Positions 17,911 to 59,519 of a stretch of 64,000 nucleotides of DNA are shown here, piece by piece (positions within the stretch are counted from its first letter, which is position 1; each line of letters starts with the position of its first letter). The stretch is from Ilyonectria destructans. Its lineage: Eukaryota > Ascomycota > Sordariomycetes > Hypocreales > Nectriaceae. The position numbers were made by a program, and so were the translations under genes. The notes beneath the pieces were generated by a model that was not told the DNA's origin, made no database searches, and saw only the letters and a program-made list of their open reading frames with translations. Location: assembly GCA_020740775.1 (NCBI GenBank), contig JAHEWK010000011.1, positions 496,001-560,000 of the forward strand, written 5' to 3'.

Positions 17911-18005
17911 AGAAGACCTATTATATTGGATTCCATATTCATCTTGGCAAATAAATTTACAATCTTCTGATTCTAGCTATAACTACTTTCGTCCACACAA
18001 TTATT
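17911..18005 (+). pseudogene. Relic of a second CHAT gene 3' end
   Basis: This stretch matches the last codons and 3' flank of the CHAT gene (16355-16470): both carry ATTGGATTCCATAT (encoding W-I-P-Y), then an AAATTTA(G/C)AAT-like run and TTCTAGCTA(C/T)AACTA. In the relic the frame reads K-E-D-L-L-Y-W-I-P-Y before diverging. The sequence upstream (17815-17900) is AT-rich and carries no readable gene. It is either a RIP-decayed tandem copy or a duplicated tail. Confidence 0.65.
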
Positions 18006-40626: not shown

Positions 40627-41549
40627 TCAGTGAAGGCCGCCTTCGTAGTCGTCATCGTACTCATACGGTGCATAAGGGGTCCATAGGGCTGAAGGCTCGC
40701 CGGGAAGAGGTCTTCTCGCGGTGTAACGCATAGTCACCTCTACTCTTCTGTTATGGCTGAGCGCAGCAATACGCCCGGCAATCCTGGCGAAGGCGTTTTC
40801 ACTCCCAGCTGTAAAGGTAAAGTTGAAGGTCTCAGCCGTCATGCCATCTGGCACAGCGTCCGAGTTCTCTGTGGCGTTTGGGTACCCGACGACTGTGCTG
40901 ACAATCCTTGTGCTGGCGACGACTGCGTCGGCAGTGTTTGCGTTGCTGGTGCCTGTTTTGATTGTGTCTGAGTCTGAGCTTGAGCTTGAGTCTGAGCTTG
41001 AGTCTGAGTCTGAGTCGGAGTCGGCATGGCCTCTCTCACGCGCGGCCTTGTCCTTGAGGAACTCTTCATACACCACGGACGGACTCTCCATATTTTGGCT
41101 TATTTTTGGTTTGCATTTGGACCATGGCCAATTGGGTATTATAGAGCCCTGCAGCTCGTGTTTGTCGACTGCACAAGTATTAGATGGAGCGATTGGACAT
41201 GCGATAGAAACGTACACCAGATTTTCCAGAAGATCATATCAACTAGGTAGTCGAAGAATGAGGTTCTAATGGCCTCATGCTTGGTTTCCGTGGCCCAGTC
41301 GCAAACCCGACCAACGGCTTCCTGTCGCAGCTCATCGTAGACTCGCTGATCTACACCAGGGACCATATAATCGAAGTAGGCGTGCATGTGCTCACGCCGG
41401 GATTCGGTATTCGTAGGGTCGACATCATCAGGAGATAGGTGGAATTTCATGCCACGTTTCCCCACTGGCGAAAAGTCGCTATATAGTTTTGGAGGGACCT
41501 GGTTCGTGTCCATCTCGATGGCTTGCGTTGGCTCGAGTCTCTGCGACAT
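40627..41549 (-). CDS. Orphan gene A: PGD-DPTN protein with FKTG-like C-terminus
   Basis: Two exons on the minus strand, 41216-41549 and 40627-41168 (donor GTACGT), total 876 nt (291 residues); an alternative ATG is at 41513. Domain order: an N-terminal family domain (LYSDFSPVGKRGMKFHLSPD, then DVDPTNTESRREHMHAYFDY), a helical part ending FFDYLVDMIFWKIW, a W-P-W linker after the intron, an Asp/Ser run, then ENSDAVPDGMTAETFNFTF and TAGSENAFARIAGRIAALS near the C-terminus. Genes B and C share the first part and the intron position; C also shares the end. No signal peptide or membrane helix is seen. Upstream on the same strand is an eroded AT-hook-like exon. I know no named family; function unknown. 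Confidence 0.8.
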
Positions 41550-42205
41550 TGTTGGTAGGTAGGGGAGGAAAGTCGAGAGACGAGTCGGAGGACAGGGGAA
41601 GTCGGTTAGGGAGGAGGTTTCGAGAAAGGTTCGGGAGGGAATTCGGCTGAGGCTCAGGGCTAGAATCGAGAGCTGTTCTTTGAGGGATGACCGCAACTGC
41701 GTTTGATCGTGGTATTAGTTCGACGGTAAATTGCAATAGACCACAGTTTGGGATGCCGGAGATGTAGCGTGCAGAAAGAGGAAGAGAGCCCACGGGCGGG
41801 CGCTGTTTATCGCGCTTCGTGTCCACTCCATCAATGCGAGTGTGAGGCTCGTGCATGCTGTCAGAGTTGCCGTGAGTGACTCCAGTTGAGATGAGATGCG
41901 GTGGTTCACTGGAAATCAGCATGCGCAGCGCGGCAAAAGTTAGCACAGCCTCTCTGCAGCCTAAAATTGAGGGCACAGCTTCATCACTGTGTCACTATTA
42001 ACTTGAACTTGCCGTAAAGTTGGTTTATTACTCGTATCTGTCAACTTCCTTTGTACTGCAACTATTCTTGCCACATATCGGGCCCATCACACCGACGACA
42101 GCTAAACGACCCCAGCGAACTCTTCCCGTGTCCCAAAATCTTCAACCACGTCGTGAATAATCGCCCAAAACAGCCGCCATCCGGGCGTTGAGTTGTCGCA
42201 GGACA
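41550..42205 (-). other. Leader region of gene A with eroded AT-hook-like exon
   Basis: On the minus strand, 41661-41715 reads T-T-I-K-R-S-C-G-H-P-S-K-N in the frame corresponding to the AT-hook exons of gene F, and is preceded by a TKRDKQRPPV block also found, altered, near 55.7 kb and 47.75 kb. The splice acceptor is damaged (AATACC in place of CAG). It may be untranslated leader in gene A. 41950-42205 is the 3' flank shared with gene I. Confidence 0.45.
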
Positions 42206-43021
42206 CTACTGGGGCTCTTCATGGCCACTAGCACCATCGCTAGGACGACGGCGATAGTCAATGAATCCGGTACTGGCATCGGTTTCCATGAACCAGGTGG
42301 TATTCTCCGCACGTTGGCACTCAGCAGAGCGCACCTCGTTGATGGGGAACACGTGGAGGCCGATTTGGCGGATGTTACTCTGCTGGGCTGCCATACCGCA
42401 AACTTGCACCACTTGGTTTACATGGCCAGACCTGAGGAAAAAGTCCCCCTCCGAGAGCTCGAACGCGACACCCGGGGTTTGGAGAAACCCATCCTTGTTG
42501 GTGACAAAACTAGCCGGCATGTCTGGAACAGACTGGGGCTCGTTTCGTCCATCAAGCTGTCCTTCCGGGTCAGTCTGCACGCCTTCTTCGGGGTCGAGAG
42601 GATCACTACTTACGTCAGAAACGTCAGCAACGTCAGAACCGTCAGAAACATTTCCAGTCTGGTTGCTGTCTTGGTCCTGGGCCTGGGACTGGGCAAAGCC
42701 CTGGACGAATCCCCTTTCGTAGCCATTTTGGAGACCCTGGGCGAAGCTCTGGGTGTGGTCCTCTCCGACATCTTGAGCTTGGTGCTGGCTTGGGTGCTGG
42801 TCGTTGTCTTGTTCCTGGCCCTGGGACAGGGCAAACCCCTCTGCGAAGCCCTGGGTGAAGCCCTGGGTGAAACCATGGAAGTGGTCTTGTCTGACACCTT
42901 CACTTTGGTGTTGGCTTGGGTGCTGGTCGGAGTTTTGGCCTTGGCCCTGGCGTCGAGAGTTGTGATTTCTGCCATATGGCTCACGTCGGTTGTTGTTTCG
43001 GCGGGCTCTCTGTCGAAGCAT
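42206..43021 (-). CDS. Orphan gene G: Arg-rich/QGF-repeat protein with FKTG domain
   Basis: Intronless, 271 residues. It begins with a basic MLRQRARRNNNRREPYGRN block nearly identical to the start of gene H, then Gln/Gly/Phe-rich repeats (FTQGF, FAEGF, FAQGL, FVQGF and SQHQ units), an acidic Asp/Ser stretch (VSDGSDVADVSDVS) and a C-terminal domain from about residue 185: GDFFLRSGHVNQVVQVCGMAA, then VFPIN, A-E-C-Q-R and TTWFMETDAS. That domain is shared with genes E and I. Low-complexity Phe/Gly/Gln repeats beside a basic patch suggest RNA binding or condensate formation, as inference only. The 5' leader matches that of gene H and the 3' flank that of gene I. Confidence 0.8.
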   Translation of the reverse strand: MLRQRARRNNNRREPYGRNHNSRRQGQGQNSDQHPSQHQSEGVRQDHFHGFTQGFTQGFAEGFALSQGQEQDNDQHPSQHQAQDVGEDHTQSFAQGLQNGYERGFVQGFAQSQAQDQDSNQTGNVSDGSDVADVSDVSSDPLDPEEGVQTDPEGQLDGRNEPQSVPDMPASFVTNKDGFLQTPGVAFELSEGDFFLRSGHVNQVVQVCGMAAQQSNIRQIGLHVFPINEVRSAECQRAENTTWFMETDASTGFIDYRRRPSDGASGHEEPQ

Positions 43022-43396
43022 CTTGTCGACGGGTGCGGGATGCGCAATGGTGGTTGGAAGAGAATCTGGGAGAAGACTCGGACTTGGGCTCAGCGGCGAG
43101 CTTGAAGTGGGAGGGATGATTCGGGAGAGGTCGCGGAAGAGGACTCGAGATAGAGATGGAAAGAGGTGACATCGACGGAACGAGCGCTGTGGTGGAGCGT
43201 GGAAGGGTCAGATATTGACTGAGTGGTTCAGCAGCCATGATTCACAGTCAACGGAGTTCGGCGAAACTTCTTTGATACCTCGGTACACACAATGAATCCA
43301 GGCAGCAAACACCTGCACGCACTGAACGTGTGCCGCTGAATTTTCTTTCAACTCCAAAGACAATCACCACCAAGAAGTTCGACCAACGCAATCGTC
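43022..43396. other. Promoter/leader between divergent genes G and K
   Basis: The G side (43030-43200) closely matches the leader of gene H at about 56690-56880, including a CCTCTTCCGCGACCTCT-like tract. The K promoter is on the right. Confidence 0.5.
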
Positions 43397-43877
43397 ATGG
43401 CACCAAACGCGACCGAAGAGCGATCCAGTGTAAGCCCGGCAAAGGACCAGGCTTCTGGTGCTTCCGGATCTGGTGCAGCATCCGGTGCAGCATCCAGTGA
43501 GTTATCCCTCGTTCCAACTCCTCTCCTCTGCTACGTGAGCGGGAATCTGACATTTTGCTTCAGGTCCCGCGGCTGCTGAACGTCGGCCTCGAAATGACGA
43601 GCCTTCGCCAACCGCTTCCGCTTCCGGCATCGACTCTGGCTCTGCTTCTGATCCCACGGCTGCTGAACATCGACCCGACACCCCAGCGAAGACGCAACCC
43701 GATTCCCCTCGAAATGACGAACCCTCGCCAAGCCCTTCCGCCTCTGGTATCGACTCTAGCTCCGCTTCTAGCCCCGGGGAACCGTCCACCTCTACCAAGA
43801 AGGAAGAACACCAGGCTAGTATGACTCGTCTGCCTAAGTCTGTCGCTGCCCCTGGCTCCCATTCCGACTCTGTTTGA
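43397..43877 (+). CDS. Orphan gene K: disordered Ser/Pro-rich repeat protein
   Basis: Two exons, 43397-43496 and 43564-43877, total 414 nt (137 residues). The protein is wholly low complexity (Ser, Ala, Pro, Glu, Asp) and holds two copies of a unit of about 40 residues, each with RPRNDEPSP or SPRNDEPSP followed by SASGID. No domain, signal or helix is seen. Reading in frame through the TGA at 43875-43877 continues as D-Q-D-A-S-A-T-P-I, then TGFSPEAIEMLRPVE, which looks coding; the TGA could have come from CGA by one transition, so the gene may be truncated. It is divergent from G in the orphan array. Confidence 0.6.
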
Positions 43878-44167
43878 GATCAAGATGCGTCAGCCACGCC
43901 CATAGCCACCGGCTTTTCTCCCGAGGCCATCGAAATGCTGAGGCCCGTCGAGTCTTCAATTCCATTGTGTCACCACATCGCTCAAAACTCCTTGACAAGC
44001 AGTTCGCTCTGGTATTCCGCCGAACAAAGGGTGCACCCGCGTCGCATGTTGTTCGGGAAGCGATGAGGGTTTCGGGTGGATTAATGTTTCGAGACTGTCG
44101 TAGTCAGAGAAGTAGTAGTTTAGGCCGCAGGGCCTTTGAGGGAATTAATAAGGCTCACGAGGAGTGA
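43878..44167 (+). pseudogene. Possible former C-terminal part of gene K
   Basis: In frame with K, codons after the TGA read TGFSPEAIEMLRPVE. In another plus frame 43925-44167 reads ARRVFNSIVSPHRSKLLDKQ and KGAPASHVVREAMRVSGGLM, also coding-like, ending at a stop. One nonsense and one frameshift mutation would account for this. A hidden intron is the alternative, but no good splice pair was found. Confidence 0.4.
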
Positions 44168-44316
44168 ATAAAAACTCGGTGACGATTTGACATGTCTCTC
44201 ACGCGCAGAATCGTAAGTTAAAAGTGAAGTGGTGACAAAATTGATTGAACTATGATACATCTACTACAAGTACACTCCATCCCATGGCGTTCCGGTCCAA
44301 CCCAGTCATCAACCAC

Positions 44317-45821
44317 TCACTGACCCATCTCGGCAACTCTGTCAGCAATGGCCTTCTGCTGGTAAATCCACTCGCGACGATACAATCTGACAATCTGGTC
44401 TCTGCCTCGTGGGATGTCGTTGGTAATCCGGCACGCCATGTAGTTCTCGTACGCCATCTGGGTTGGCACATGGTCGACGTAGCCTTCTGGACCGACAGCG
44501 TCGATGGCTTCGACAACCTTTCTCAAGTCCCGCATTTGGACGGCATAAACCTCCAACCCCTGCGACACCGTTGGAGAGTTAGACTCACCCTCCTCGGCAT
44601 CGATCAATCCTCCGAGGGTTCTGAGGAGACGGGAGTATGGGGTGTGGAGGTACCCAGCCTCGGTAGTCTCTTGCATGGCCGCCCTGAGCATGTCTCGGAC
44701 AGGGACAGGCAGAGGGCCATCCTCAGAATTGCGCATGGCAGCTCTGAGCCGGTCCAGGACAGGACACGCAACCTGAGTTGGAGTTTCCCACACACGGCGG
44801 TCATCCGTGCGGCAGATGACTGCGAACTGAAGGAACATGGCCAGCACGGCAGGGTCTCCCATCCAGACCGGATGCGTCAGGAGGATTGACAGTTGAGCCC
44901 AAAAAGTCTGCCCCCATACTGGCGAGACCAGCACATTCGAGGAGTAGTTTATTGAGTTGCTGGGAGTCTGCTCATACATAAGCTTTCGCAGCGGTGTGAT
45001 GATGGAGAGGGGGGAGCATCGGAACTTGCGCAAGCAAATCTTCCAAGTGCCCATCGGTCGTAGGTAGCCCGACGAAGACAGGGCCTGGTTCTCGGGAGAC
45101 TCATCCCACTGCCTCTCCAGCTCAGCGTCGGCGATCTCTGGAGCGATGAGACCATCTAGATCGGCTTCCTCAAGCGGTTTCTTGACGGTCTCGAGGACCT
45201 TGATGGACTGGTCACGGACATCGAGCAGGTTTGTCTTCAGGGCGTACCACATCGCTTTTCGGTACTCCGTTTCGTCCTTCGTCATCTCTCCACCCTTTGA
45301 TCGCTTTTTTGGTGGTTCGGCCTTGGACAAGTCGTGGTCGAGAGAGGGCAACTTGGGAGGCGATTCGGCAGGGGGTTGGGCAGGCTCAGGCAGGGCAGGC
45401 TCAGGCAGGGGATTCTTCCTGGGACGACCACGGCCACGCTTGGCGGTGGTAGTTTCTGGTTCAATGTTAGATACGCGTCCGGTGAGGAGTTCAGAGAGGG
45501 ATTCTAGGGAACATCTTGCGACGAGGCGAGGGCTGCATCATCCACAAGAGCTCACGAGAAGACTGACCAGGAAGAATACCAGAAGGCTGGCTCGAGGCTC
45601 CGGGTTCGGCAGGCTCAGGCAAGGGAGCCTTGCGAGGACGGCCACGGCCACGTTTGGCAGCGGTCCCTGTGATTTGATGTTAGATACGCATTCAGTGAGG
45701 AGTGAGAGGAGTGCCGAGAGAACAGCTTTCGACGAGGGAAGGGCTGCATTGTGCACAGGGACTCGCTAGAAGGCTCATGAGAAGACTCACTAGGGGTCGG
45801 TTCAGCCACAGTTGGGGCCAT
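44317..45821 (-). CDS. Orphan gene F: double AT-hook protein
   Basis: Three exons on the minus strand, 45791-45821, 45568-45666 and 44317-45455, total 1269 nt (422 residues), with unusually long introns for this window (124 and 112 nt). Exons 2 and 3 each start with an AT-hook, AAKRGRGRPRKAP (residues 14-25) and TAKRGRGRPRKNP (48-59), so the hook exon was duplicated; both introns end in a TCTAAC branch motif. After a Pro/Glu linker and a KKRSK basic patch comes a helical domain of about 340 residues (WYALKTNLLDVRDQSIKVLE, RRVWETPTQVACPVLDRLRA, TVSQGLEVYAVQ, QMAYENYMACRI) with no named family. AT-hooks bind the minor groove of AT-rich DNA, so a nuclear chromatin role is likely. A broken copy lies at 55.9-56.5 kb. 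Confidence 0.82.
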
Positions 45822-46634
45822 CTTGATCGCTCGAGGTGTGGACGCTGATGGCGGGTGGTTCAAGATGCGAAATTTTCAAAGACCAGTAGACGCTGCTGCC
45901 TGCTCACAATCAATTTTGCGATTATTTGAAAGAAACAGTTTGTGGCCGGACAGGTTCCATGGCAGTGAATCATGATTCCGCTGCCACTTGACATGGAACC
46001 TGGCGCACGGTTATTGAGGCAGCCAGACAAGAGGCCAAAGCCAGCGCTGCGATCTGTCGAATCTCAAACACGACAGTCGAGACGCGCGGGTGACGGTGCT
46101 CTCGAGTATGCTAGGCGCGGGATCGATGCACAAATGCAGGAATCTTAATAATTAGAAGATGTTGGCTCATTTTAGCCTTCACCTGTGTCTTGACTATTGT
46201 GTCAGCCGTGAAACAAACTCAGACAAACCTGGGCTCGGTGTTGTTTTCGGCGAGAGGGCGTACCCGGCCGAGGAGCGCGGATCTCAGGACTGGATCGCAA
46301 AGTTGTACGTGTAGAATATGTGCACGAAATTCATGGATCCCATACTAGCATGGAGGGCACAACATCATCACCGTGTCACTACGAACTTGAGAATTTTCGT
46401 GAAGTTGCTTTATTGCTTGTATCTGCCAACTTCCTTTGTATTGCAAGTATCCTTGCCACCTGTCGGGTCCATCACAACATGCATCAACCACAACTGCCAC
46501 GACCCAAGCGAACCCATCTCCGACCGTGTTCCAAATTCTTCAACCGCGTCGTGAACCATCGCAGGAAACAGCCGCCACCTGGGCCTCGAGTTGTCGCAAG
46601 GGTGCTGGGGCTCTTCATGGCCACCAGACACAGC
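45822..46634. other. Spacer carrying duplicated 3' flank of gene I
   Basis: About 46360-46634 matches the 3' flank of gene G (41985-42230): shared blocks include GGCCATGAAGAGCCCCAG, GTGGCAAG and ACAAAGGAAGTTG, all on the minus strand. In G the first block is still coding; in I it lies after the stop. No other gene is seen. Confidence 0.5.
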
Positions 46635-47093
46635 TTAATGGCGAGAGATGCGAAGCCGGGAGGTAGAGTATCCAGGCCTGGCCGTGACGTCCACGCCCAC
46701 GAGGGTCTTTCCAGCACGCAGTTTCGCATCATCCCCGTCGAGGATGGGGAACAATGCCGTCTGCACATCAGAATCGCCAATCATGGTGGCGATCATGTCG
46801 AGACCTTGTCGCAGGGTGTCCTGGTGCCCAGTCTTGATGAAGTAGCCGCCGCCCGGGACCTCTCTGATGACGTCCTTGGTTGGGACACTGCCACCATCCT
46901 CAATGATAGCCTTGACAACCGCGTCGGAGATAAAGACGGGGGCGTCTCCTCCCTCGAGCAACCCTCCTTCGCCGGTCTGCTCGCCTGTGGCACCTGGGTT
47001 GCCAGCAGACTGGTTCTCAGACGAACCTCCATTTCGGGGGCCCAGAGGAACAATGTTGATACCAGTAGCGGGGTCTGGGCGTCGGAAAGGCAT
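46635..47093 (-). CDS. Orphan gene I: VPLGPR-FKTG protein
   Basis: Intronless, 152 residues. The N-terminal half is Gly-rich and holds INIVPLGPRNGGSS, matching SVPLGPRDGGFS in gene H. Residues 78-152 are the FKTG domain (VPGGGYFIKTGHQDTLRQG, then TALFPILDGDD and TLVGVDVTARP), shared with genes E and G. Compared with G the protein stops about 15 residues earlier, since sequence after the stop still encodes SGGHEEPQ in another frame. No signal or membrane segment. Function unknown; the shared modules put it in the same family set. Confidence 0.7.
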   Translation of the reverse strand: MPFRRPDPATGINIVPLGPRNGGSSENQSAGNPGATGEQTGEGGLLEGGDAPVFISDAVVKAIIEDGGSVPTKDVIREVPGGGYFIKTGHQDTLRQGLDMIATMIGDSDVQTALFPILDGDDAKLRAGKTLVGVDVTARPGYSTSRLRISRH

Positions 47094-48079
47094 CTTGTAG
47101 AAGGGGAGGATGTGTGTGTTTGTGGTTGTGGTGGTTCTTGAGATGTTTTTGTGGTGGTGTGGTGTGGTGGTGTGGTGCGGTGGTGAGGCGGTGGTGATGT
47201 GAAGGAGGAGAAATTTTCAAACTTGGCAACAAAGTCTGCGTGCTAAATATGATTTTCTTTTACCACCCGTTCTGTGCGTTGTGCGTTCCAGTTATGTGAC
47301 CGCCTGAATTCATTGTTGTGTATCAAACGAGGTTTCGCCGATCTCCGTTGGCTGTGAATCATGACTTGGTTGCCGACTGGAAGTTGCTGAACCGCCCAGT
47401 CAACATCTGACGGTTCCATACTCAACACCGCCACTGTCGTTTCAGGCCTCACATCAGAGATTCAATCCAAGAGCGGGGGCTCTTCTTCTTCTTGACCACT
47501 TGAGACGCTGTCCCTAGGAGGCTTGCTGCTGGCTCCCTGGTCTACGCTGCGCAACATCTCCTGGCTTCAAACGCACTGTTACAGGTACGGAACGCGTTTG
47601 TTATTGTGGAATCTCGCCGCGCCGCGCACGCTGAATTTCAGTGAATGATCCCATCCCGCCTTGCCTGTAGCCACTCCACCCCAACTCTTACGACGTTCAT
47701 AAACCTCGCGTCAATAAGGGTAACACCGAGCGTGAAAAAGCTTCACCGCCCAGTGAGCTCTCTCCTCCTATTTCTGCATGCTGTATCTCTCCGTCCTTCT
47801 AAGCTGTTGCTTGTTCAACTCTAACGTCGAACAATAGATGCCACGATCAAGTGCGACCGTTTTCGTCCCTCGAAGAAGCGACACCCGATCCTGGGCTCGA
47901 GCCTCAGTCGAATACTCTTCCTCCTCTCCGAATTCTCCTCCCACTTCGAATCCTCTCTGAAACCTCCTCTTCTTCGAAACTCCTCCTCTCCGAAACATAC
48001 TCCGACTACAGCTTCTGCCCCGGAGCTTCCTCTTGTCACTTTCCCGCATCGACTCAGAGCGACCCAAGCACGGCTGGAC
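47094..48079 (+). other. Gene E leader with probable 5' coding extension
   Basis: From 47838 to 48079 the frame of gene E has no stop and reads A-T-I-K-C-D-R-F-R-P-S-K-K-R-H after an AG acceptor preceded by TCTAAC, the same exon start as the AT-hook exons of gene F. Ser/Pro-rich sequence follows. The true first exon was not found; a CCCAGTGAGC donor-like site lies near 47750. Upstream (47094-47640) is the gene I promoter and nothing else recognised. Confidence 0.45.
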
Positions 48080-49120
48080 ATGGCAACACAAGCGGCCAAG
48101 GCTGAGCTAGAGGGAGTTGACACGCAGTGGAACCAGATGCGCGACTTCGAAGTCTCCCGTGCCCTGGATCCCAAGGTGTCAGACCTGGAATCTCGTGTGT
48201 CTGAACTTGTGCACGAGCTGGAGGCAGCCCGGCACGACGCCAATGTCAAGGCCATTGATTCCGCCGCCGAAATCACCAGGCTGGAAAGCGTCATTGAGAG
48301 ACAGCGCAGGGATGACGCCTCCCTCGATCACCGGGCTGAGGATGGTGGCCGACGGGATGAACTCGCGGCTCCCACACGGCAGTACCCTGGCGGCTACTCC
48401 TTCAAGACTCGGAATCTCAACGACATCGTGCAAGTTGCTGGGCAGGCAGCCCTGAATAGCGAGGACGGGTTGGTCGGAGGGTGGGTTTATCCCATTGACC
48501 AAAAGGTCTGGGCTCGTTGCCGACAGAAGGAGATCGCCATCCGGGCTCTGCAAACTACCTCGGTCTCTGGGATGATGAAGGATCACGTGGCCACCGGACG
48601 ACGCATCGAGGAGGTCACCGATGATATCGAGGATGAGGATGTGGACGAGCCGGTGCCGCGGCCTGTGGATAGCAATCCTGGCGCGAAGCTCCTCTCGGAG
48701 TTCCCTTGGTCCACTCGGGTTGCCATTGAAAGGCAAGCAGCCCCGAACCCGCAGGGCGGGAGAGCCCCGGCCCAAACGGCATCCAATCCCAAGCCCAAGC
48801 CTCTACCAGAGGCTCTCTTCGCTGCTCTCCGCGCGCATCGTGCAAGCGCGGTCAAGGCCAATCCAGGCATCTTGACCGAGGGCTTCCGAGCCGCCCACCG
48901 CGACGAAGCGCAGAGGCATGCACTGCCACTTGTCAACGGATCGGACCCGGCCCCTCCCCAATCTCTGGGCCTTGGTGATTTGGATGCGATGGACAACCTG
49001 GAAGGAGCCCAGGGCGGTCGGGGGGAGGTGTCCCTCCAGGATAACTCCAGTGTGCCTGTTAGCCACAGTCGGGAGTTCGACCAGGAGCAGGGCAGTGACC
49101 ACGAAATGGGTGGCCAGTAG
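48080..49120 (+). CDS. Orphan gene E: coiled-coil protein with FKTG domain
   Basis: At least 346 residues from the ATG at 48080; coding probably extends upstream to 47838. Residues about 1-85 are a coiled coil (DLESRVSELVHELEAARHD, EITRLESVIERQRR). Residues about 102-175 are the FKTG domain (YPGGYSFKTRNLNDIVQVAG, then GGWVYPIDQKVWARCRQKE and ATGRR). After that come an acidic stretch (VTDDIEDEDVDE), a basic/Pro region (ASNPKPKPLPEALFAALRAH) and an acidic Gln/Ser tail. No signal or membrane helix. The mix of a dimerising helix with the shared domain suggests a scaffold for the family, which is inference. Confidence 0.75.
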   Translation: MATQAAKAELEGVDTQWNQMRDFEVSRALDPKVSDLESRVSELVHELEAARHDANVKAIDSAAEITRLESVIERQRRDDASLDHRAEDGGRRDELAAPTRQYPGGYSFKTRNLNDIVQVAGQAALNSEDGLVGGWVYPIDQKVWARCRQKEIAIRALQTTSVSGMMKDHVATGRRIEEVTDDIEDEDVDEPVPRPVDSNPGAKLLSEFPWSTRVAIERQAAPNPQGGRAPAQTASNPKPKPLPEALFAALRAHRASAVKANPGILTEGFRAAHRDEAQRHALPLVNGSDPAPPQSLGLGDLDAMDNLEGAQGGRGEVSLQDNSSVPVSHSREFDQEQGSDHEMGGQ

Positions 49121-49491
49121 TTGGGCAAATGGAAGATTGTGTACAATAAAGGATGGGCGAAATGACAGAGGATGGATTATCGTCACTTGCGCTGTGAAAG
49201 TGATTGTCCATGTTCGCCAATGAATATCACAAGCATCCCAGTGTATCCCATGCCGTAGTTCCACCTAACCAAGCCGAGATGTCCCTACCTCAAGACAGCA
49301 AGGTCGGTCGTGTCTGATGGGTGATCCACTTGCCAGTTGTCACAGAGGTATTTCAGGCCCCCAGCGTCGATTCCAACCACACAAACAACCCGAATCAAGT
49401 GAGAGTTCTCCGCCTACTTCGAGCTCACTTCAACTTCACCCTTTCACCTCTGTCAACACACACACACACAACCACACCACACAACGGCAAA

Positions 49492-49719
49492 ATGACAGAG
49501 AGAGTCAAGACAACGCACATCCTCAAGATGGAGGGAAAGGAGGCGCCTCAAAAAATATACGCCGACTTCACGCCCGCTGGTGAGAGCGGGAAAAGGTTCC
49601 CTGTGTCTCCTGGGGACGTTGACCCCACGAACATCGAGTCCCGGCGTACCCACATGAACGCCTTCTTTCTGTACATGTTTCCCGAGACCAAAGAGGCCAT
49701 TTTGGAAAAGAATTGTTGA
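49492..49719 (+). pseudogene. Orphan copy D: truncated PGD-DPTN gene
   Basis: 75 residues: IYADFTPAGESGKRFPVSPG, then DVDPTNIESRRTHMNAFFLY and MFPETKEA match the N-terminal domain of A, B and C almost residue for residue, but a stop follows shortly after. In the next frame the sequence continues as ELLIACKWSIGL and a further hydrophobic stretch, resembling the next helix of the family (LRLLAIESACRS in C), so a frameshift probably broke it. It is the only member on the plus strand. A (CA)n run lies at 49457-49470. Confidence 0.65.
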
Positions 49720-50202
49720 TTGCCTGCAAATGGAGCATCGGGCTCCAACCGGCCATCACCACGTGCTGTTCTTCAGTAGTCGTAGCCCTCCAGATGGCAT
49801 CCAACACAGCCGGGTAGCGCGTAACTGAATGGTGCCTCGAAGAATGTCGCGCCATGAAGTAGGCCAGGTAATGGTCGTAGAAGAGGATGGGGAGCCCTTG
49901 CTGAAAGACGAAGGGTCCTGGGCGTCACTGCTTACTGTCTGACTTTGGTTCTGGTATCATTCGGCGGCCTCTTCCTCCCTTCAGCATCCAGATCTCAGGA
50001 TGCTGGGTCGAAGCATGCAGAATGAGGAGATATCAAGGTCTGGGTCTTCCCTTGTAGAATTCCATGGCAGTCACAATGGCACAGTCAATTGTTGAACACT
50101 TCTTTCTTTGTCTCCCACGCCCATTACTCTTGTACGTAAAACACTAGGCCATTACTGACCTGCCAGCGACTCCAAGTCGCTGTGGTCAATCTCATCCTCG
50201 GA
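49720..50202. other. Convergent spacer
   Basis: Decayed continuation of copy D to about 49835, then 3' flanks. No gene seen. Confidence 0.45.
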
Positions 50203-50803
50203 CTAACGCGCGGCCTCACCCTTGGCCTCACCCTTGGCCTCATCCTCAGACCCATCCTCAGCCTCACTCACGCCATAATCCACTGGGCCCATATCTATAT
50301 CTTCGAGCTCATCGATTGGTGGGATTATCCGTTGGATCCTAGCAATACGGGCGGCCTTAAGCCACTCGTCGTAGGTCGCGGACCTGCCATCCTTCATGTC
50401 GTCGTGTTTGGGACGATACGCGGCCCAAGGCCACTCGGGCGTCGGATAGCCCTTCTTATCGAGTTCCTTGACTGTGCAACTGTTAGACAAGTCGACCGAT
50501 GTGGGATAGCAACGTACACCAGTCAACCCAGTGCTTGTGGTCGACAGCATACTCGAAAGCCGCCCTCCCAACAATGGTGAGATTCCACTGGTTCATTGTC
50601 TCACACGCCAGCGTACTGGCCTTGTCATGCATTTGAACCAAAGCGGACAGTGGTGCGTCTGGCTGCATGTAGCAAAAGAATGCGTTCATGTGAACACGGC
50701 GGGCGATGATGTCTGTGGGATCGAGATCACCAGGCACCAAGTAGAACCTCTTGCCAGTCTGCCCTGGCGGCGAAAAGTCGGCATAAAAGCGGCTGGAAGG
50801 CAT
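50203..50803 (-). CDS. Orphan gene B: PGD-DPTN protein, short form
   Basis: Two exons on the minus strand, 50518-50803 and 50203-50471 (donor GTACGT as in gene A), total 555 nt (184 residues). N-terminal domain: FYADFSPPGQTGKRFYLVPG, then DLDPTDIIARRVHMNAFFCY, then helices ending FEYAVDHKHWVDW. After the intron: PTPEWPWAAYRPKHDDMKDG and RSATYDEWLKAARIA, close to gene C. It ends in an acidic tail with GEAKGEAK repeats and lacks the FKTG-like end of A and C. The open frame continues upstream of the chosen ATG without homology to the other copies. Divergent from gene J, with 401 bases between. Confidence 0.75.
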
Positions 50804-51204
50804 CGTGCGGTCGTGGATGGACGCGTAGTTGGTTGCGGTTGTGATGGTTGTGGGTGCGATGGAGAAAGTTCGAGCGATGGAGAAATCTCGAGCGATTGCA
50901 AGTTTGAGACGTTGTTGTGTAATGAACAATGTTCTCTGAGCTGTCACCTGAGTTCCAGCGAATTTGGACGAGTTCTATCCAGGACGTTTGGGTTCCAAAC
51001 GGTGGGCATCTGTCAACAGCTGTCAGGTAACATGCCCCTCACATGCATCTCACTCGGCGTCAAAACTGCGGACTTTATCATCACAACTTCACCATCGCGT
51101 CCAACTCCAGCCTTTTTCTGGCAACTGAACGACAAGATCAAGGGTAACTGTTACTGTTTTTTCCCTGCCCCCAGTTGAACTCACCGCTAACCTGAACAGA
51201 CAAC
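50804..51204. promoter_or_regulatory. Divergent promoter of genes B and J
   Basis: 401 bases between start codons. It contains repeats of GAGCGAT(G/T)G and GAGAAA(G/T) near 50860-50900. No defined factor site is recognised. Confidence 0.35.
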
Positions 51205-53412
51205 ATGTCTGCTTCCACCACCAACGAGACTCTCGACGCCATCGCCCACTGGGCATCCTCCTCCGATCCTGTCGTCTTCCGTCACCTCCGTGTCAGCCAC
51301 GGGGACTTCACCCATCCCAGTGTCCGGCAGGCCATCTGGAAGTCGGTCACCAAGCATAAAGATCATGTCATCTTCGTTGGGTCCAAGATGGAAACCGATG
51401 TCGCCAAAGACGATACTTGGGACTCGAACTCGGAAAGTCCTCCGACATTCGCGACTTACGTTGAGTTCGTCGACCTGCTCGAAAAGAATCGAGCAAAAAG
51501 TGGCAAGGGCCCTGAGGCCTGGAAGGAGGAGTGGCAGTCGGATGGTTGGATTCTGCCAAGCCGCGTCCTCATCATCATGTCGATCGAGCCTCAGATGCCT
51601 TGCGAGTGTGCCCTTGCCCTCGTTGCTGCGGTCCACTGGGCCATGGACATTGCTCAACGAAAAGACGCCCGCGCCCGGGTGCTGACAATGTCCCCAGAGG
51701 AGGAGGCGCTCGCGCTCATAAGTCTCCTTGAGTTGTACTCTGTTCCGTGGGCCACCCAGGTTGACATGAGTGGTGCATTGCCCAAGGGGTATCGGACTGT
51801 ATGCGCAGACCCCTCGGAATTGGCCAGGCAGGTTCTCTTCAATCTAACGCCGGAGCCAACCGAGAAGGACATAATCTTGTGCTTTCCGCCAGACGAGCGC
51901 GCCTTTTCGCTTGGGGCTCACTTCCAACGGCTCAAAACCTTAGGTGGGTTGGACAAGGCTTGGGTCGAGTCCCTGTCAAATTACTTGCCGACGACTGAGT
52001 TGGTTCGTTCCACTTTTCGATCCCACATCGCCCCGGGCCACTTGGTATACATGAACAATGGGTTTCGTGCTCCATGTGGAATCGATGGCTTCGACCGAGT
52101 GCACATTGTCTTAGGGTCCACCGACATGAGGCCCGTCTTCGACGCTGTCACTGGTCAGATCACTTTGACGGAGCTCTCTCTATCGCGAGACGAACGACTG
52201 GATCAAGTGTCTTGGATCGGCAGAGCAGACTGTCTCCCGGAGAACATATTCGTCTACCTCGATACCCAGCACCGCACGGTGGAGGAGTTTGTTGATGCGG
52301 GTCAAACGCGTCGTCGGCTACAAGTTTCCAACCACCAGCTGGGTGGCTTTCTTGGTGCCTTGGCAGGTATTTCGCACTGGGGCCTTGATGTCTTTCAGGT
52401 CGCTGAGCAGTTCGTCCGCGAGAACTTTGCCTTGCGTGAGATGGCAACTCGGATGACGCGTCAGGGGATCCTCGTTCGGTCGTCGGACTCGATATACAAC
52501 GGCCTGACCCTTGGCATGCGTGACGATGAGCCACGAATCTTCAAGGCAGTGCTACCCATCCTCAACTACGACCATCGGTTAGCCTACTTCCTAGCGCGCA
52601 GTTCCTCGAGTGGTCTCCTCCGGCACCTCAAGGTACAAGTAGCGGCTGTTATGTGCGTTGGTCCTCACGACGTGGTCAGACTTCAGGACGTGGCCGGGAA
52701 GACGGCCGCCGAGGTCATTCCGACCCTCATTAATGCTTGTTGGGGATGCACCCGACATATGGCAAGGAAGGGCGCCATTTGGCTCATGTCAGGTCTCTGG
52801 AAGCGGATGGCCAAAGAACATGGCAGCTTTCAGTCGGAGGGATGCCAACAAAGCATGGGACTTCTCATTTCCGACACGGATATTTCTGTAACCGCCCTGT
52901 GTTCACTTGAAGTGGTCAACATCATCACGGCCCTCAACGATGCACTCTCTGACCTCGACGTCGCCAACTGGACGAAGGCTATAGCCAAGGAGACCAAGGA
53001 CCTAGACCTCGTCGAGTCGCAGCAGTTGGAGCTACAGCGCGACTTGTTGTATGCATACGCGTACCAGCTTGCTGGGTCCGTTATGCATCGCGGGCTTGAA
53101 GCAGGCCCCCTGCTGCTCACTCATGATATTTCGACACGGAAGATGTTATACGCCAACCTCACCTGGCTGGACTCCATTCTCGATACCGCGAGACAGTCTG
53201 AGAAGAAACCCAACTGTGTTTTTGGCATTTACCATTTCTTGAGCCGCGAAGGAAAGGATGTCGGGTTCCAGGACTGGACCTGGATCCCCACTCAGCTGAT
53301 CCGTGATTGGGACATGGTCAAGAAGGAAATGGGCACACTTCACCAATGTTTGTCCGGGAATCTTCGTCCAACCAAGAACTTTGATGAAATTGAGACGGAT
53401 CCTTCCCAATAG
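51205..53412 (+). CDS. Gene J: DEAH/RHA helicase-like protein with lost catalytic motifs
   Basis: Intronless, 735 residues. The layout follows DEAH-box helicases with motifs decayed: residues 127-170 (IEPQMPCECA...ARVLTMSPEEE) sit where DEAHERS...VIIMSAT is expected; 221-247 (KDIILCFPPDERAF) where gILVFLPG-type motif IV lies; 281-294 (VYMNNGFRAPCGIDG) where ATNIAETSLTIDG lies; 307-325 (DMRPVFDAVTGQITLTEL) matches the K..YDP.TG..SL strand; 333-342 (DQVSWIGRAD) replaces QRAGRAGR; 376-397 (NHQLGGFLGALAGISHWGLD) matches the E-I-x-R-T-N-L ratchet helix start; 404-490 matches the HA2 winged-helix region. No P-loop GKT is seen. It should not hydrolyse ATP and may act as an RNA- or partner-binding scaffold. 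The C-terminal third could be an OB-like region. It is the only large gene in the orphan array. Confidence 0.7.
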   Translation: MSASTTNETLDAIAHWASSSDPVVFRHLRVSHGDFTHPSVRQAIWKSVTKHKDHVIFVGSKMETDVAKDDTWDSNSESPPTFATYVEFVDLLEKNRAKSGKGPEAWKEEWQSDGWILPSRVLIIMSIEPQMPCECALALVAAVHWAMDIAQRKDARARVLTMSPEEEALALISLLELYSVPWATQVDMSGALPKGYRTVCADPSELARQVLFNLTPEPTEKDIILCFPPDERAFSLGAHFQRLKTLGGLDKAWVESLSNYLPTTELVRSTFRSHIAPGHLVYMNNGFRAPCGIDGFDRVHIVLGSTDMRPVFDAVTGQITLTELSLSRDERLDQVSWIGRADCLPENIFVYLDTQHRTVEEFVDAGQTRRRLQVSNHQLGGFLGALAGISHWGLDVFQVAEQFVRENFALREMATRMTRQGILVRSSDSIYNGLTLGMRDDEPRIFKAVLPILNYDHRLAYFLARSSSSGLLRHLKVQVAAVMCVGPHDVVRLQDVAGKTAAEVIPTLINACWGCTRHMARKGAIWLMSGLWKRMAKEHGSFQSEGCQQSMGLLISDTDISVTALCSLEVVNIITALNDALSDLDVANWTKAIAKETKDLDLVESQQLELQRDLLYAYAYQLAGSVMHRGLEAGPLLLTHDISTRKMLYANLTWLDSILDTARQSEKKPNCVFGIYHFLSREGKDVGFQDWTWIPTQLIRDWDMVKKEMGTLHQCLSGNLRPTKNFDEIETDPSQ

Positions 53413-53673
53413 ACGCGTCACTTGCCAACGGCAGCCGCAATGCGAAAGAAATTGTCGAACACTACCTGTAATAATAAAGCAAGTTCACCCCGCAAGTCTC
53501 AAATTCAACGCGATGAAGTTGTGCTCTCCATGTTTGTGTGAGGTTTAATGATTTGGTACACATAATCTACAGGTACAACTTTAGATTCCAGTCCTGAGAT
53601 CCGCGCTTCTCGACCTGGTACACCTTTTCGCGGACAGAACACCGGGCCCTGCTGCTTCTCTGATCGTGACATA
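53413..53673. other. Convergent spacer of J and C
   Basis: Untranslated flanks; the word AGTCCTGAGATCCGCGC here recurs inverted near 46270. No gene. Confidence 0.4.
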
Positions 53674-54350
53674 TTAAGGGCGGTAACACACGTTTACATC
53701 CAGCTCTCCAGAAGGGCTGAGCCCAGCGAGATGGTTAAGAATCTCGACCACAGCTTCTTCGCTCCCAGCCTTGTAGGTGAAGCTGAGGTTCTCAAGCGTC
53801 AGGCCGTCCGGCATAGAGTCAGAGTTCTCGGTGGTGTCTGGGTCGGCGGTGACTGTGTCGGCAGTGTTTGTGGCGACAGTTTTCGGATCGGTGGTGCCTG
53901 TGTCGGCGGTGTCCGTGTTTTGGGCCTTGAGCCACTCGTGGTACGTCTCAGATCGACCATCCTTCATGTCGGTCGGATTGGGGCGATATTTTGCCCATGG
54001 CCAGTCCGGCGCTTGGCCAGAGTCTCGATGTTCGCTAACTATACGGTTGTTAGTCAGGACAATCTAACATGCGGAGGGAACTTACAGCTGTGAACCCAGT
54101 GGGTCTGGTCGACCCAATACTCAAAGAACAGGGCACCAATATGCTGGTGACCCTTCTTGGAGATGGACCTGCACGCCGATTCAATGGCCAACAGGCGCAA
54201 TCCTTCGAAGTGGTCCTTGGGGGCCTCCGGGAACATGTACAGTAAATAGGCGTTAATATGTTCCGCCCGACTCTTCGAGTTCGTGGGATCAAGATCCCCG
54301 GGAGACAAGTCGAACGTCTTGCCACTTTCGCCAAATGGCGAAAGGTCCAT
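53674..54350 (-). CDS. Orphan gene C: PGD-DPTN protein with FKTG-like C-terminus
   Basis: Two exons on the minus strand, 54086-54350 and 53674-54038, total 630 nt (209 residues). N-terminal domain: LSPFGESGKTFDLSPGDLDP, then TNSKSRAEHINAYLLYMFPE, then helices to FFEYWVDQTHWVHS. After the intron: PDWPWAKYRPNPTDMKDGRS and ETYHEWLKAQ (close to B), a Thr/Asp repeat tract (TADTGTTDPKT), then ENSDSMPDGLTLENLSFTYK and AGSEEAVVEILNHLAGLS, which align with gene A. The intron position is conserved with A and B. The starting methionine gives a shorter N-terminus than the other copies. Function unknown. Confidence 0.78.
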
Positions 54351-54799
54351 GGCTGGGTTAGGTTCCGACTGTCAGTTGCGGTCGCTTGTGAATTCGGTCA
54401 GCGAGGACCCATTCACAAAGACAAGCTCGGAACCCCCCAAGTCGTGGAAGATTCTACCACCGTTGTCCTCTGACAAGTTCAGACACATTTCTCCCAGGAG
54501 ATTCATCATACGACACAATAGTGAGGAAGAGCAGTCACCTTATAGCACAATCTGGGACTTGACAACTATTTCTTTGATACGTCCCCCGCTCATCCCCTTT
54601 GCCAATAACCACATCGTGTCCGACTCTCGAATCCATGCTGCTAGCCCCGTCGAAAGCATCACCACTCAACCCCGTCCAACATCTCCTCATCGTCGTTGTC
54701 TTCTTCAGCGGGGACCGGCAGCCTCGCACGCCCATTGAGGGGATGCCCCGAGCCCAGTTTCTCAAGTCGGCATCAAGCCCATAGCTGGTTGTTCGCGTG
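54351..54799. other. Gene C upstream region
   Basis: On the minus strand 54660-54730 reads PAEEDNDDEEMLDGVEW before a stop, an acidic tail that may belong to a lost gene. Otherwise nothing is recognised. Confidence 0.35.
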
Positions 54800-55830
54800 A
54801 ACAGTAGCCTAAGTTCTCTCGCTGTCGCCGTAAAGAGCCACTGCGTTGATACAAGAGAATTCCCTCTTAGCAGGGCTGTTGCTGTTGACAGTCGAGTGTG
54901 GAAACCTTACAGCGACGGTTGAGAGTACTAACGTTGCGAAGACGCTTTGAGGTAACCGGACTCTCAGTGGTCCCAGCGGCGATATTCGCGCCATCAGACA
55001 CACCTCCCTGGGCCTTGAGCCGGTCGCAGTACGCTTCGGACCTGCCTTCAAGAGGCCAGTAGAATTTCCGATCGAACTAAACTACTGGCGGAAAGTCGGA
55101 ACATATCGTTAGAGGGACCTTTTCCACGTCCACCCCAATTGTTGTGTTGACTCACTTGTCTCTGGCATGGCGCTCTTTTTAGGAGAGTCGTGGTGGGTGG
55201 AGAAGTCGGAAGAGAAGTCGGATGATGAGTCATAGTGGGAAGAACATCTGGACGGGACTCGGAGGAGGACTCAAGAGAGGTCGAAAGTGGAGTCGGCAAA
55301 GAGACCAGAGGAAGGTTCGACACAGAGGTCGTAGTGGGTGGAGAGGAGGAGACGTCGAAGAGAAGGAGGATATGGAGTGAGGAGTCGGGAGGAGGAGGTT
55401 TCGAAGACGAGGAGATTTCGGAGAAGAGGAGGCGTCGGAGAAGATCAGGTGTCGGAGAGGAGGAGATTTCAGAGAAGAGGGGGTGTCGGAGAGGATGCGT
55501 CGGAGAGGATTCGAAGCAGAAGGAGGTTCGGGAGATAAATCAACTGGGGCTCGGGGTCAGGATCGAGTGTTTCTTTGAGGGACGACCGTATTCGCGTTTG
55601 ATCGTGGCATCTGTTGTTCGACGTTAGATTTGAACAGACAAGCAGCTTCGGATGGCGGAGAGATACAGCACGCAGAGGGAGGAACAGAGGGCTCACTGGA
55701 TGGTGCGGTTTGTCACGCTTGATATCGCCTTGCTGGTATGAGATTTGGAGAAGGTGGAATGATTCACCGAAATTCGGCACGCCCAGCGTGGAAAACATGG
55801 ACAATATCAAACCCCTTTCAGACTTAGAAC
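54800..55830 (-). pseudogene. Degenerate PGD-DPTN family copy with expanded CT-rich leader
   Basis: On the minus strand, about 55690-55750 holds the IKRDKPHHPV leader block, 55560-55610 an eroded AT-hook-like exon (T-I-K-R-E-Y-G-R-P-S-K-K), 55150-55530 a CT-rich tract of repeated TCCTCTCCGAAATCTCC-like units, and about 54980-55060 reads EGRSEAYCDRLKAQGGVSDG, matching KDGRSETYHEWLKAQ of gene C. The N-terminal PGD domain is missing. It appears to be a fifth, broken family member. Confidence 0.55.
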
Positions 55831-55885
55831 AGTGCTTGAAGCCAGGACATGTTCCGCAGCGCGCGCGGACCTTGGAGGGCAGGCC

Positions 55886-56482
55886 TCAGAGCCAGCAGTA
55901 AACCTCCTGGTGACAGCGTCTCAAGATGTCGGGGAAAAGATGAACCTCTGCCCTTGAAGTTACTCTCATAGCGAGATCAGATATGAGAGTTGTCGTGTCC
56001 GGGATGAAAGGTTCAGATGTTGACTCGGTGGTCCAGCAGTTCCCAGTTGGCACTCGACCATAATCCACAGCCAGGTAGTTCTCGTACACCATCTGTGTGG
56101 TCGGTGTAGCCTCCTGGACGACATAAAACTCGAGGCCCTGCGATACAGTTGGAGGGCAACTTGGAAGGCGATTTGAAAGAGAACCTTTTGAGACGAGATT
56201 CGACAGAGGGCCTGGCAGACTTGGGCTGCTTATTCTTTCGGGGACGGCCACGGCCACGCTTGGCGGTCATAGTTGCTAGTCCAACGTTAGATACGCGTCC
56301 AGTGAAGAGTTCAGTAAGGGTTTCCAAGGGAACATCTTGCGACGAGGGAAGGGTTGCATCATCCACGACGGTTCACCTGGAAGCTTAGAGGAAGTCTGGC
56401 CAGAGTGTTCACCGGCGGTTCAAGTATTCGTCGGGCGCCTGCCAGGGGCCGGTTCCGCCACAGTTGGGGCAGTTGGGGCCAT
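55886..56482 (-). pseudogene. Broken copy of AT-hook gene F
   Basis: On the minus strand from 56482 it starts MAPTAPTVAEPAP like gene F (MAPTVAEPTP), but the exon 1 donor GTGAGT has become GGCAGG. The AT-hook exon is kept (TAKRGRGRPRKNK), then after KLPS the sequence jumps, out of frame, to PTVSQGLEFYVVQEA and QMVYENYLA, that is, the C-terminal end of F. Some 250 residues are deleted, two reading frames are needed, and the tail is unrelated. It is a pseudogene made by internal deletion. Confidence 0.75.
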
Positions 56483-56886
56483 CTTGATAACTCGATGTGC
56501 GCAAGTTGTGATAGCGAGTATTCAGAGCAAGTTTGAAATCTTCCAAGTTCGGTAGACGTTGCTGCGTGCTCACAACCAATTTCGCAATTAATTGGAACAG
56601 TTTGTGGGCGGACAGGTTTGCAGTGAATCATGATTCCGCTGGCGTTTGACAACGCTCGGTGATCATTCCCACACCCAGCCTTCGATTCCTCCTCATCTTT
56701 CCATCTCTCTCTCGAGTCCTCTTCCGCGACCTCTTCCGAATCCTCTTCCGCGACTTCTTCCGAATCCTCTTCTGCGACCTCTTCCGAATCCTCCCTCCAG
56801 CCTCAAGCTCGCCGCTGAGCCCAAGTCCGAGTCTTCTCCCAGATTCTCTTCCAACCACCAACACACACTTTTTCATCTTCTACAAG
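56483..56886 (+). repeat. Gene H leader with 24-bp CT-rich tandem repeat
   Basis: At about 56712-56800 a unit like CGACCTCTTCCGAATCCTCT is repeated about four times. The rest (56800-56880) is nearly identical to the leader of gene G, so G and H share promoter-proximal sequence as well as coding sequence. Confidence 0.65.
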
Positions 56887-57924
56887 ATGCCTCGACAGAG
56901 AAACCGCCGAAACAACGACCGACGTGAGCCATATCACCAAAACTACGGCCAGTACCGAGGCCAGCACCAAGGCCAAGACTACGCTCAGGGTTTCGCACAG
57001 GGTTTCGCCCAGGGTTTCGCCCAGGGTCTCGCCCAGATTAATGCCCAGCACCAAGCCCAGCACCAAGCCCAGCACCAAGCCCAGCACCAAGCCGACGACC
57101 ACACCAGAACCCTTTCTAGCGCCAACAGTGTTCCTCTCGGCCCCCGCGACGGAGGTTTCTCTCGGGACCGATCCGCTGGTAACCAAGTGTCCAGAGGTGT
57201 GCAGACTGTCGAAACAGGAAATCCGCTCCCGTTTGGTCCAAGCGGCGCCGTCAATGATATCAGCCAGGGTCAGATTCCCGAATGCCGACTTCGGGGGATG
57301 ACTGGGGGCCTGGGAATCGGCGCCAAGAAGGGATCGTTTGCCTACCGGACGCGTCTGCCTCGTGATCTCTTAACCCGTCGCAAGGAACCCGCAAAGGAGG
57401 GGGAACGGGCTCAAGAGGCTCTGGAGCCAGCAAAGGAGGTGCAACCGGCTCAAAAGGCGCCGGAGACTGCACCCTGGAGGCCCAAGTGTGCTGGATGTGG
57501 CTCCAGCACCCACTTGCTCGCCTCGTGTATGCGCTGCAATGACAGGGGAATGATTGAAGGCTGCCCCCGCTGTAACACATTGAGCCATGGGGCCAACAAC
57601 TGCGGTATCGGCCTCAATATGCGCGAACTTGTCAACGATCTGCTGTACGGTCGTGCCAACATGCCTCCTTTCAGTGGGAGACCTTGGTTCCTCATTTTCA
57701 AGGACTACATCAAGGGCAAGGAGAACCCTCCCATTCCCCAGGCGTTTCCCTGGTCTCCAGCTTTTGCCGTGGAGAAGCGAGCAGAGATCACCAAGCTGCA
57801 GGCAGAATTGGACGCTCACGGGGACTGCAGCAAGTTGCCCGTGGACCCCTCCACCAAGGACTGGGAAACCGTTCAGGCAATGGTGGTCTTCGAGAAGGCT
57901 TCAGAAAGTCGCCGCCTACACTGA
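56887..57924 (+). CDS. Orphan gene H: QGF-repeat protein with two CCHC zinc knuckles
   Basis: Intronless, 345 residues from the ATG at 56887, chosen by match with gene G (MPRQRNRRNNDRREPY). Residues 33-48 are AQGF repeats, 52-69 AQHQ repeats, 81-90 the SVPLGPRDGG block shared with gene I, and 149-162 (GSFAYRTRLPRDLL) a partial FKTG-like motif. After a Lys/Glu/Pro stretch come two zinc knuckles of exact CX2CX4HX4C form, C201-C204-H209-C214 and C226-C229-H234-C239. The C-terminal part (GRPWFLIFKDYIKGKENPPI, EKRAEITKLQAELDAHGD) has no named family. Zinc knuckles bind single-stranded RNA or DNA, so an RNA-binding role is likely; no Gag, protease or RT domain is present to suggest a retroelement. 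Confidence 0.8.
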   Translation: MPRQRNRRNNDRREPYHQNYGQYRGQHQGQDYAQGFAQGFAQGFAQGLAQINAQHQAQHQAQHQAQHQADDHTRTLSSANSVPLGPRDGGFSRDRSAGNQVSRGVQTVETGNPLPFGPSGAVNDISQGQIPECRLRGMTGGLGIGAKKGSFAYRTRLPRDLLTRRKEPAKEGERAQEALEPAKEVQPAQKAPETAPWRPKCAGCGSSTHLLASCMRCNDRGMIEGCPRCNTLSHGANNCGIGLNMRELVNDLLYGRANMPPFSGRPWFLIFKDYIKGKENPPIPQAFPWSPAFAVEKRAEITKLQAELDAHGDCSKLPVDPSTKDWETVQAMVVFEKASESRRLH

Positions 57925-59519
57925 CAAGGCCCAGAGGAGGAGCCGGGATTTGAGTCGGATTTTGAGATAACCCACAACGATGATGCGTCGATGATCGGCC
58001 AGTAACGCCGTAGTGTTGTATGTAGATGGGTGAGAGATCAATGGATTCAGTGTTTTTTAATCATGCATTTTGCCGTTGAATTGATTGTTCTTTTGTCTAT
58101 GGAAGCGAGATGCATTGTGATAAAACTGACGTGAGTTTCTGGCCCATGCCGTCCGCACTGCTGTTCTTCAGTGGGTTGCATAAAGTTGACACCCGACCTA
58201 AGTCAATCACACAATACCTACGTTAGTCAATATTAGGGTACAATTTATCGTCAATATAAAGTTTAAGGTAAGGGTTAGGGTTTGGTTTTTATTTTTATTT
58301 TTATTCTCTTAGAAACAATAATACTTTATCATAAAGCAGAAGGAGACAATGCCTTAATACTTGGTCAAGCTCTTATGGCAAAAGTATTGAGGTGCAAACT
58401 TTCCTTTCTGCTTCCCATTGGAATCAGACTATGAAACAGGAAAAAGACAAATAATAAGACAGACCATTCATAGCTCGAGCGGCAGGCGTTTGAGGCTCGT
58501 AGTTAATTTGCCGATACCTTCTACATCAGTGCTTTGGGAGCGTTCGCGAATTAGGCAAACGAGAGCGATGGCGCGACCACGAATTCTGGGCTGGACCTTG
58601 CAGTTCGACACGCTTACAAGTATCTTTATTAGTTAGTAGATTAAATGTTCTGGTCATCTGAAATTTGTTGCTGTCTCAACCATGCCAGTCCCCGACTGTT
58701 GGTTCCGACGACACGAAACCTGGAGAATGCAGGGGCTCTGCAATCAGTCAGCTTCGGGTGGGCCTGCAATTTCGGTGCCCCAGCATGTTAAATCCCAATG
58801 GCGTGTTGAATCTATAAGCCGATTGGTTAATGAACATGTGGATTTGTTAGTCGGGTGTTGGTTGTCATCATGATTCTGTCTCTTGTCTACCTTGGCGCAG
58901 CTGTGGCGATGCACACAAGGGGATCAATCATCCGCTGGTTCAATTCGTCGTGAATCAATTGGCTGTCTATCTCTTCCCTGGATTATTGATCTGCCGGGTT
59001 TGTGCCATGTGGAGCAGGACATGACAGAAATGTAGGTCGCTGTCGGCAAGTACCAGTGTAGTAAAAGCTATGGAGCGGGTGCTTAGTTGGGCGACTCCGG
59101 ATCGAGGCATCAGGATCACAGTATCCACATCCTTGATCTCTCATTAACGTACCTTGCGGAAATGAATGGCCTTGACCCGACCGTGTCAAGACGAATATGG
59201 ATGCCGCTTTGCCTGCACTGTTGGTGCTGTTGGTCCGGTCCATATGAAACAATACGGGCTCAACAGCTTGGGATATTCCAGCGCAGATCCTTCGACTTAC
59301 CCCTGCCAAGATGCAACGTTCATCCCTGCGGCCAAGCCAACTCAGCCTTGATTGCCAGCCTAGATTTTAACCTTTACTCGCCCAAGTTCCTGTCCCCCGT
59401 CTTTGACTTTTTGTCTTTCCCCTCATTGTCGTGCCGTTTTTGTTCTGTCCTCGTTCACGCCTCCATTCGTTCTGCTTCAAGGTTGAGCGTTGGGCCTCTT
59501 CCGAGTCCTGATTGCAGAC
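57925..59519. other. Gene-poor region with a short telomere-like tract
   Basis: About 1.6 kb. 58267-58284 reads GGTAAGGGTTAGGGTTTG, containing the fungal telomere unit TTAGGG; ATTAGGGTA occurs about 50 bases upstream. A T-rich run follows. Open frames here lack domains. The last 150 bases are the pyrimidine-rich leader of the lectin-like gene. Confidence 0.5.

Follow-up and report, generated by a model that had tools for sequence, protein, structure and literature searches.

The DEAH/RHA-type (DHX) RNA helicases, such as HrpB, Prp2, Prp22/DHX8, Prp43/DHX15, and DHX37, share a common domain order, and the winged-helix region together with RecA2 of DHX15 and Prp2 binds G-patch partners. A DEAD-box-like protein, the essential Utp25/Def of the small-subunit (SSU) processome, has been called “the first fully validated pseudohelicase” (PMC9539457). 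Here, we describe gene J of Ilyonectria destructans (Nectriaceae, Hypocreales), which resembles Utp25/Def in retaining a helicase fold whose ATPase motifs are lost or dispensable, but differs from it in being DEAH/RHA-like, so far known from Nectriaceae, and located within a cluster of orphan genes. This array occupies 40.6-57.9 kb of a window of 64,000 nucleotides (contig JAHEWK010000011.1, positions 496,001 to 560,000; coordinates below are those of the window unless a contig is named) and comprises nine genes that are open, along with several copies that are broken. We read it as a conserved, fast-evolving Nectriaceae cluster whose proteins most likely form a nucleoprotein complex with a pseudo-DEAH helicase as its scaffold, a reading to which we assign a probability of roughly 45 %; that it is a real DNA- or RNA-handling system of some kind is probable.

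Gene J (51205..53412, + strand) encodes a protein of 735 aa whose predicted structure adopts the DEAH/RHA fold in the domain order RecA1-RecA2-winged helix-ratchet-OB, as in the helicases named above, and its profile aligns collinearly with theirs. What distinguishes J from them is the loss of the motor. None of the 12 J proteins compared carries a Walker A motif (GxGK[ST]) anywhere in the protein, bare GKS or GKT occurring at residue 65 of P0008 and residue 498 of P0001. Likewise, motif II (DE[AVI][HD]) is absent from all 12, SAT (motif III) appears only at residue 2 of P0004, which is not its place, and IEPQ-like and MSP-like residues occupy the presumed motif II and III places, the former having been set by eye. 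Motif VI (QRxGRxGR) was found in 0/12 and is replaced by EQVSWIGRAD-like or further decayed sequences. The Pfam release that we used did not recognize J as a helicase. Furthermore, conservation is modestly reversed, being highest outside the motor domains, with the winged-helix/ratchet region still constrained. By sequence and model, J is a dead DEAH-type fold that has lost its ATPase motifs.

This protein does not stand alone. We searched the 71.7 Mb genome (74 contigs, the window lying on contig C3) with J and F from C3 and C6, PGD from C3 and C6, and H and a further protein, K, from C5; the counts that follow are lower bounds, as only the best candidates were scored, and some further matches are fragments within the same loci. 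At least one J gene was found at each of C3 and C5 and two at C6, and F is present at both C3 and C6. PGD genes number at least four at C3, two at C6, and one each at C5 and C67, while H was found at C3, at C5 (one open copy and one split between frames), at C6, and three times at C67. The loci span about 17, 10, 24, and 11 kb, and all matches fall within roughly 62 kb of the 71.7 Mb. K constitutes a fifth family, located near J at both sister loci (C5:1456673-1458754 and C6:1844456-1845667); its two copies are 29 % identical, that at C5 has an RS-rich tail, and none was found in the window. At the fourth locus (C67:1800033-1810927), one PGD gene accompanies three paralogues of H. J proteins of separate loci share no more than 22-37 % identity. 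In the J tree, the copy from C5 joins Fusarium napiforme (support 96/93), although the branches of both are long and this join may be false; the copy from C3 falls with I. robusta and other contigs, and then with Cylindrodendrum. If this topology is correct, the separation of the loci predates that of those genera.

The families also recur together in other fungi. The homology searches required short exact words, so that absence is weak evidence, and gene I had no query of its own. The J search yielded nine matches including that of the window itself, with relatives in five genera; the H search yielded five relatives, and a search with F and pieces of G and E nine matches, one being E itself. 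At least two cluster families are present in five named assemblies and linked in four of these: J (02606) and H (02607) in I. robusta AUP68, H and G in I. robusta BGZ61, H (652212) and F (652211) together with a second F in Ilyonectria sp. MPI-CAGE-AT-0026, and J (g12686) and F (g12687) in Cylindrodendrum hubeiense, where consecutive tags suggest neighbours rather than prove them, least of all for the Joint Genome Institute (JGI) numbers. One further contig of 21,850 bases carries J and H and is countable only because they are linked. Same-contig placement was deduced from equal contig size, a rule that holds for the window's own proteins. All named relatives, of which two species were checked, we take to be Nectriaceae. 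The sequence-only reading had no named family for most of these proteins, and its single-system idea would have failed had their homologues never been clustered elsewhere. In our Pfam scan, no array family gave a match over the cut-off, the proteins are lineage-restricted rather than members of well-known unrelated families, and the families do co-occur at other loci of this genome and in other Nectriaceae, so the idea of a single cluster survives. Its descriptions of J as a dead helicase-like protein and of the modules as DNA- or RNA-binding in type were equally borne out.

Gene H (56887..57924, +) combines an Arg-rich/QGF N-terminus, a VPLGPR stretch, two CCHC zinc knuckles, and a conserved C-terminal domain. 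The knuckle CX2CX4HX4C is found twice in the sequence of the window's H, as the sequence-only reading had noted; the first copy is invariant in 6/6 aligned H proteins, and the second is imperfect in the C6 protein. The H alignment matches SLU7 (E 0.0015) and nucleocapsid knuckles, and five relatives (P0011-P0015) bear a precomputed annotation as PF27939, a family known here by number alone and newer than the Pfam release applied to the window's H. Gene F (44317..45821, -; 418 aa by inferred splicing) bears two KRGRGRPRK AT-hooks in tandem exons, each following an inferred 124-nt intron, a helical core, and the signature VICRTDDRRxW. The hook exons and their introns resemble a tandem exon duplication (45608-45775 versus 45394-45564, 75 %), and the core is modelled mostly at a pLDDT of 70-89 from about residue 220 onward. 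P0016 of Ilyonectria sp. is 89 % identical to F over 65 % of the query and has the same two hooks, while Pfam AT_hook reached 17.1 bits on P0018, just below the cut-off of 17.4. Both AT-hooks and CCHC knuckles are short motifs, whose likeness to those of known proteins implies no family membership. In P0019 (771 residues), the F core (ICRTD[DN]RRPW) occurs twice in tandem. Finally, the long PGD proteins encoded at C5, C6, and C67 possess a second domain with an invariant GXXG (3/3), for which 13 of 16 matches in a profile search of the PDB were KH proteins, IMP3 and MEX3C among them, but all of them weak (E 0.4-1.9). The PGD genes of the window are without this KH-like second domain.

In the complex that we favour, J would serve as an ATP-independent scaffold that binds RNA or partners through its winged-helix/ratchet region, and it could engage G-patch partners without motor activity, structures with such partners being among its fold-search matches. 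H would supply zinc knuckles for RNA, a KH-like domain may come from the long PGD proteins encoded at the sister loci, and F could, through its two AT-hooks, attach the complex to AT-rich DNA, presumably in the nucleus. An elaborated version, which we regard as quite unlikely, is a nuclear RNA-chromatin complex for genome defence that is specific to the family Nectriaceae, where pseudo-DEAH scaffolds would clamp transcripts, knuckle and KH-like partners would select them, the AT-hook protein would tether them to AT-rich chromatin, e.g. that mutated by repeat-induced point mutation (RIP), and paralogous loci would diversify against different targets. J would represent a DEAH-type pseudohelicase family that has long persisted without its motor, in a recurring cluster with nucleic acid-binding partners that lack a named family here. 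If the proteins do form one complex, the cluster would offer a compact, removable model for the ATP-free reuse of a helicase fold, and also one for the origin of orphan clusters via local swapping of flanks and exons.

Several observations weigh against such a complex. The reversal of conservation in J is modest, neighbouring columns depend on one another, and the alignments compared had 12 versus 6 rows. Apart from RecA2 (P 0.017), single segments of J do not by themselves match DEAH helicases in sequence (P 0.1-0.33); the DEAH case rests on the whole protein and on the fold. P0012 of I. robusta, which lay outside the six-protein alignment, has a degenerate first knuckle, and the F core gave neither a convincing fold match in the PDB nor a Pfam match over the cut-off. 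As for the clustering, E was found in the genome search at C3 only, as its own copy; J, F, and K were not found at C67 by the queries used, which implies that the parts need not all occur jointly; J and F of Neonectria magnoliae lie on separate contigs (230,376 and 113,094 bases); and the sparse word search found no PGD relatives outside the I. destructans genome.

Within the window, distinct families are fewer than gene letters: PGD (A-D), an H/G/I/E type joined by common pieces, F, and J. The PGD-DPTN domain, which the sequence-only reading had assigned to A, B, and C and, broken, to D, is indeed encoded by gene A (40627..41549, -; two exons, intron 41215-41169), gene B (50203..50803, -; intron 50517-50472), and gene C (53674..54350, -; intron 54085-54039), with D (49492..49719, +) truncated in exon 1 and a scrap of exon 2 at 55009..55049 (-). 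The intron of 46-47 nt, whose splicing is inferred, sits at the identical place in all three genes, and the spliced product of B equals the NCBI protein P0010 (EDB80DRAFT_894805), save for one extra C-terminal residue in the latter. By sequence, A and C have a common tail (0/2000 shuffles reached its score), which B lacks.

The second group is connected more loosely. Gene G (42206..43021, -; I. robusta relative P0020) consists of a QGF-rich N-terminus and an FKTG module, gene I (46635..47093, -; 153 codons with the stop) of a VPLGPR stretch as in H and an FKTG module, and gene E (48080..49120, +) of a coiled-coil-like stretch, recognized by eye, and an FKTG module. Two links that had been proposed from the letters hold: H and G share their Arg-rich/QGF N-terminus and 5' DNA (81 % over 224 bp), and H and I the VPLGPR stretch (DNA 75 % over 91 bp; protein score reached in 0/2000 shuffles). 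Comparisons of H with G, E, A, and C were non-significant (179, 511, 1212, and 1303/2000 shuffles reached the score). The FKTG-like motif, proposed for A, C, E, G, and I, stood in part: the regions of G-I and G-E are related (0/2000 each), I-E is less firm (33/2000), and pairwise links of A or C to G, E, or I failed to reach significance (213-1105/2000), one profile comparison (P = 0.0012) providing a hint only.

Duplication has also moved DNA between different genes. By DNA comparison, parts of the 3' flank of I (46231..46627) resemble positions 41966-42231 at the 3' end of G (78 %) and positions 53512-53649 in the 3' flank of J (79 %). A 63-bp remnant of a J-like gene, with 76 % similarity, lies at 49836..49898 (-). 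Comparably, the 5' region of E (47616..47942, +) recurs in that of A (41609-41934, inverted, 67 %) despite the different proteins encoded, and a relic copy of the E upstream region (47349-47996, 67 %), which also resembles the A upstream DNA, is located at 55449..56073 (-). Next to it, the broken copy of F (56070..56651, -) retains an AT-hook exon and 5' region, as the sequence-only reading had it. Its further suggestion of eroded AT-hook exons is plausible but weak for the DNA upstream of A and for the 55 kb relic: the A upstream region matches the AT-hook exon of F and its broken copy at 60-62 % over 45 bp and the relic at 82 %, while the region upstream of E is tied to this group solely through those two (67 %). 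The duplications are old (67-83 % identity for pieces >100 bp) and cross gene boundaries, and therefore the proposal of locally shuffled modules was right. The array copies have no RIP signature, and their transition/transversion ratios are mostly ordinary. As judged from these sequences, the cluster expands and erodes through local segmental duplication, in the course of which different genes also exchange their 5' and 3' flanks.

Could such turnover alone account for the cluster? In a birth-and-death process, lineage-specific genes without joint function would be held next to each other by tandem duplication, and their common modules would reflect unequal recombination. The abundance of relics and exchanged flanks over 17 kb, the mostly ordinary substitutions without RIP signal, and the one locus (C67) without detectable J, F, or K agree with this, yet we consider it rather doubtful, since unrelated families stay linked in other genera and in separate loci with J proteins only 22-37 % identical, a linkage that drift and local duplication alone leave unexplained. 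An origin from a multigene mobile element or virus, of which the loci would be remains or domesticated descendants carrying J, H, F, and PGD as a unit, would explain why there are several of them; we nevertheless deem it improbable, as the genes have short introns, J retains C-terminal domains of cellular-type DEAH proteins, IMG/VR gave no relative of J or F, and a PHROGs search matched only P0016, twice and weakly, at residues 2-25 around its AT-hook, with nothing for the seven other proteins given. Moreover, the C3, C5, and C6 loci have common DNA only in pieces of 50 bp or less (C67 was outside this comparison) and are thus too dissimilar for recent movement.

The rapid evolution of the cluster, its duplications and their decay, modules of AT-hook and RNA-binding type, and the presence of other conflict-type genes in the region (a TPR-CHAT gene and a NACHT-type domain) are features that one might associate with a locus of genetic conflict (through meiotic drive, incompatibility, or defence against repeats), whose paralogues diversify under conflict. 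We regard this as a long shot: no toxin-like, toxin/antidote, or silencing component was recognized, and the relatives of J span five genera, not one. Still, the present evidence does not firmly separate the neutral, domesticated-element, and conflict explanations from a J-scaffolded nucleoprotein complex.

The open reading frames that flank the cluster were read by eye. A large TPR-CHAT protein is encoded at 13085-16408 (+; Pfam CHAT E 8.8e-32), CHAT being a caspase-like type often tied to cell-death systems. About 9 kb past the window end, an NPHP3_N/NACHT-type ATPase domain (L025 8963-9766, -; NPHP3_N E 7.5e-26) is adjoined by a reading frame that appears WD40-like by eye, and thus an NLR-type (NOD-like receptor) gene is present in the region. 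The stretches 10001-14000 and 16001-18000 are AT-rich (GC 36-43 %, TA/AT 1.11-1.23), and this composition suggests RIP-mutated repeats, whereas the orphan cluster is free of such signs. Just beyond the 3' edge of the cluster, a short telomere-like AGGGTTAGGG is found at 58271-58280, and further on, at 59487-60545 (+), a fungal fucose-specific lectin domain (E 4.5e-12) follows what by eye appears to be a membrane anchor.

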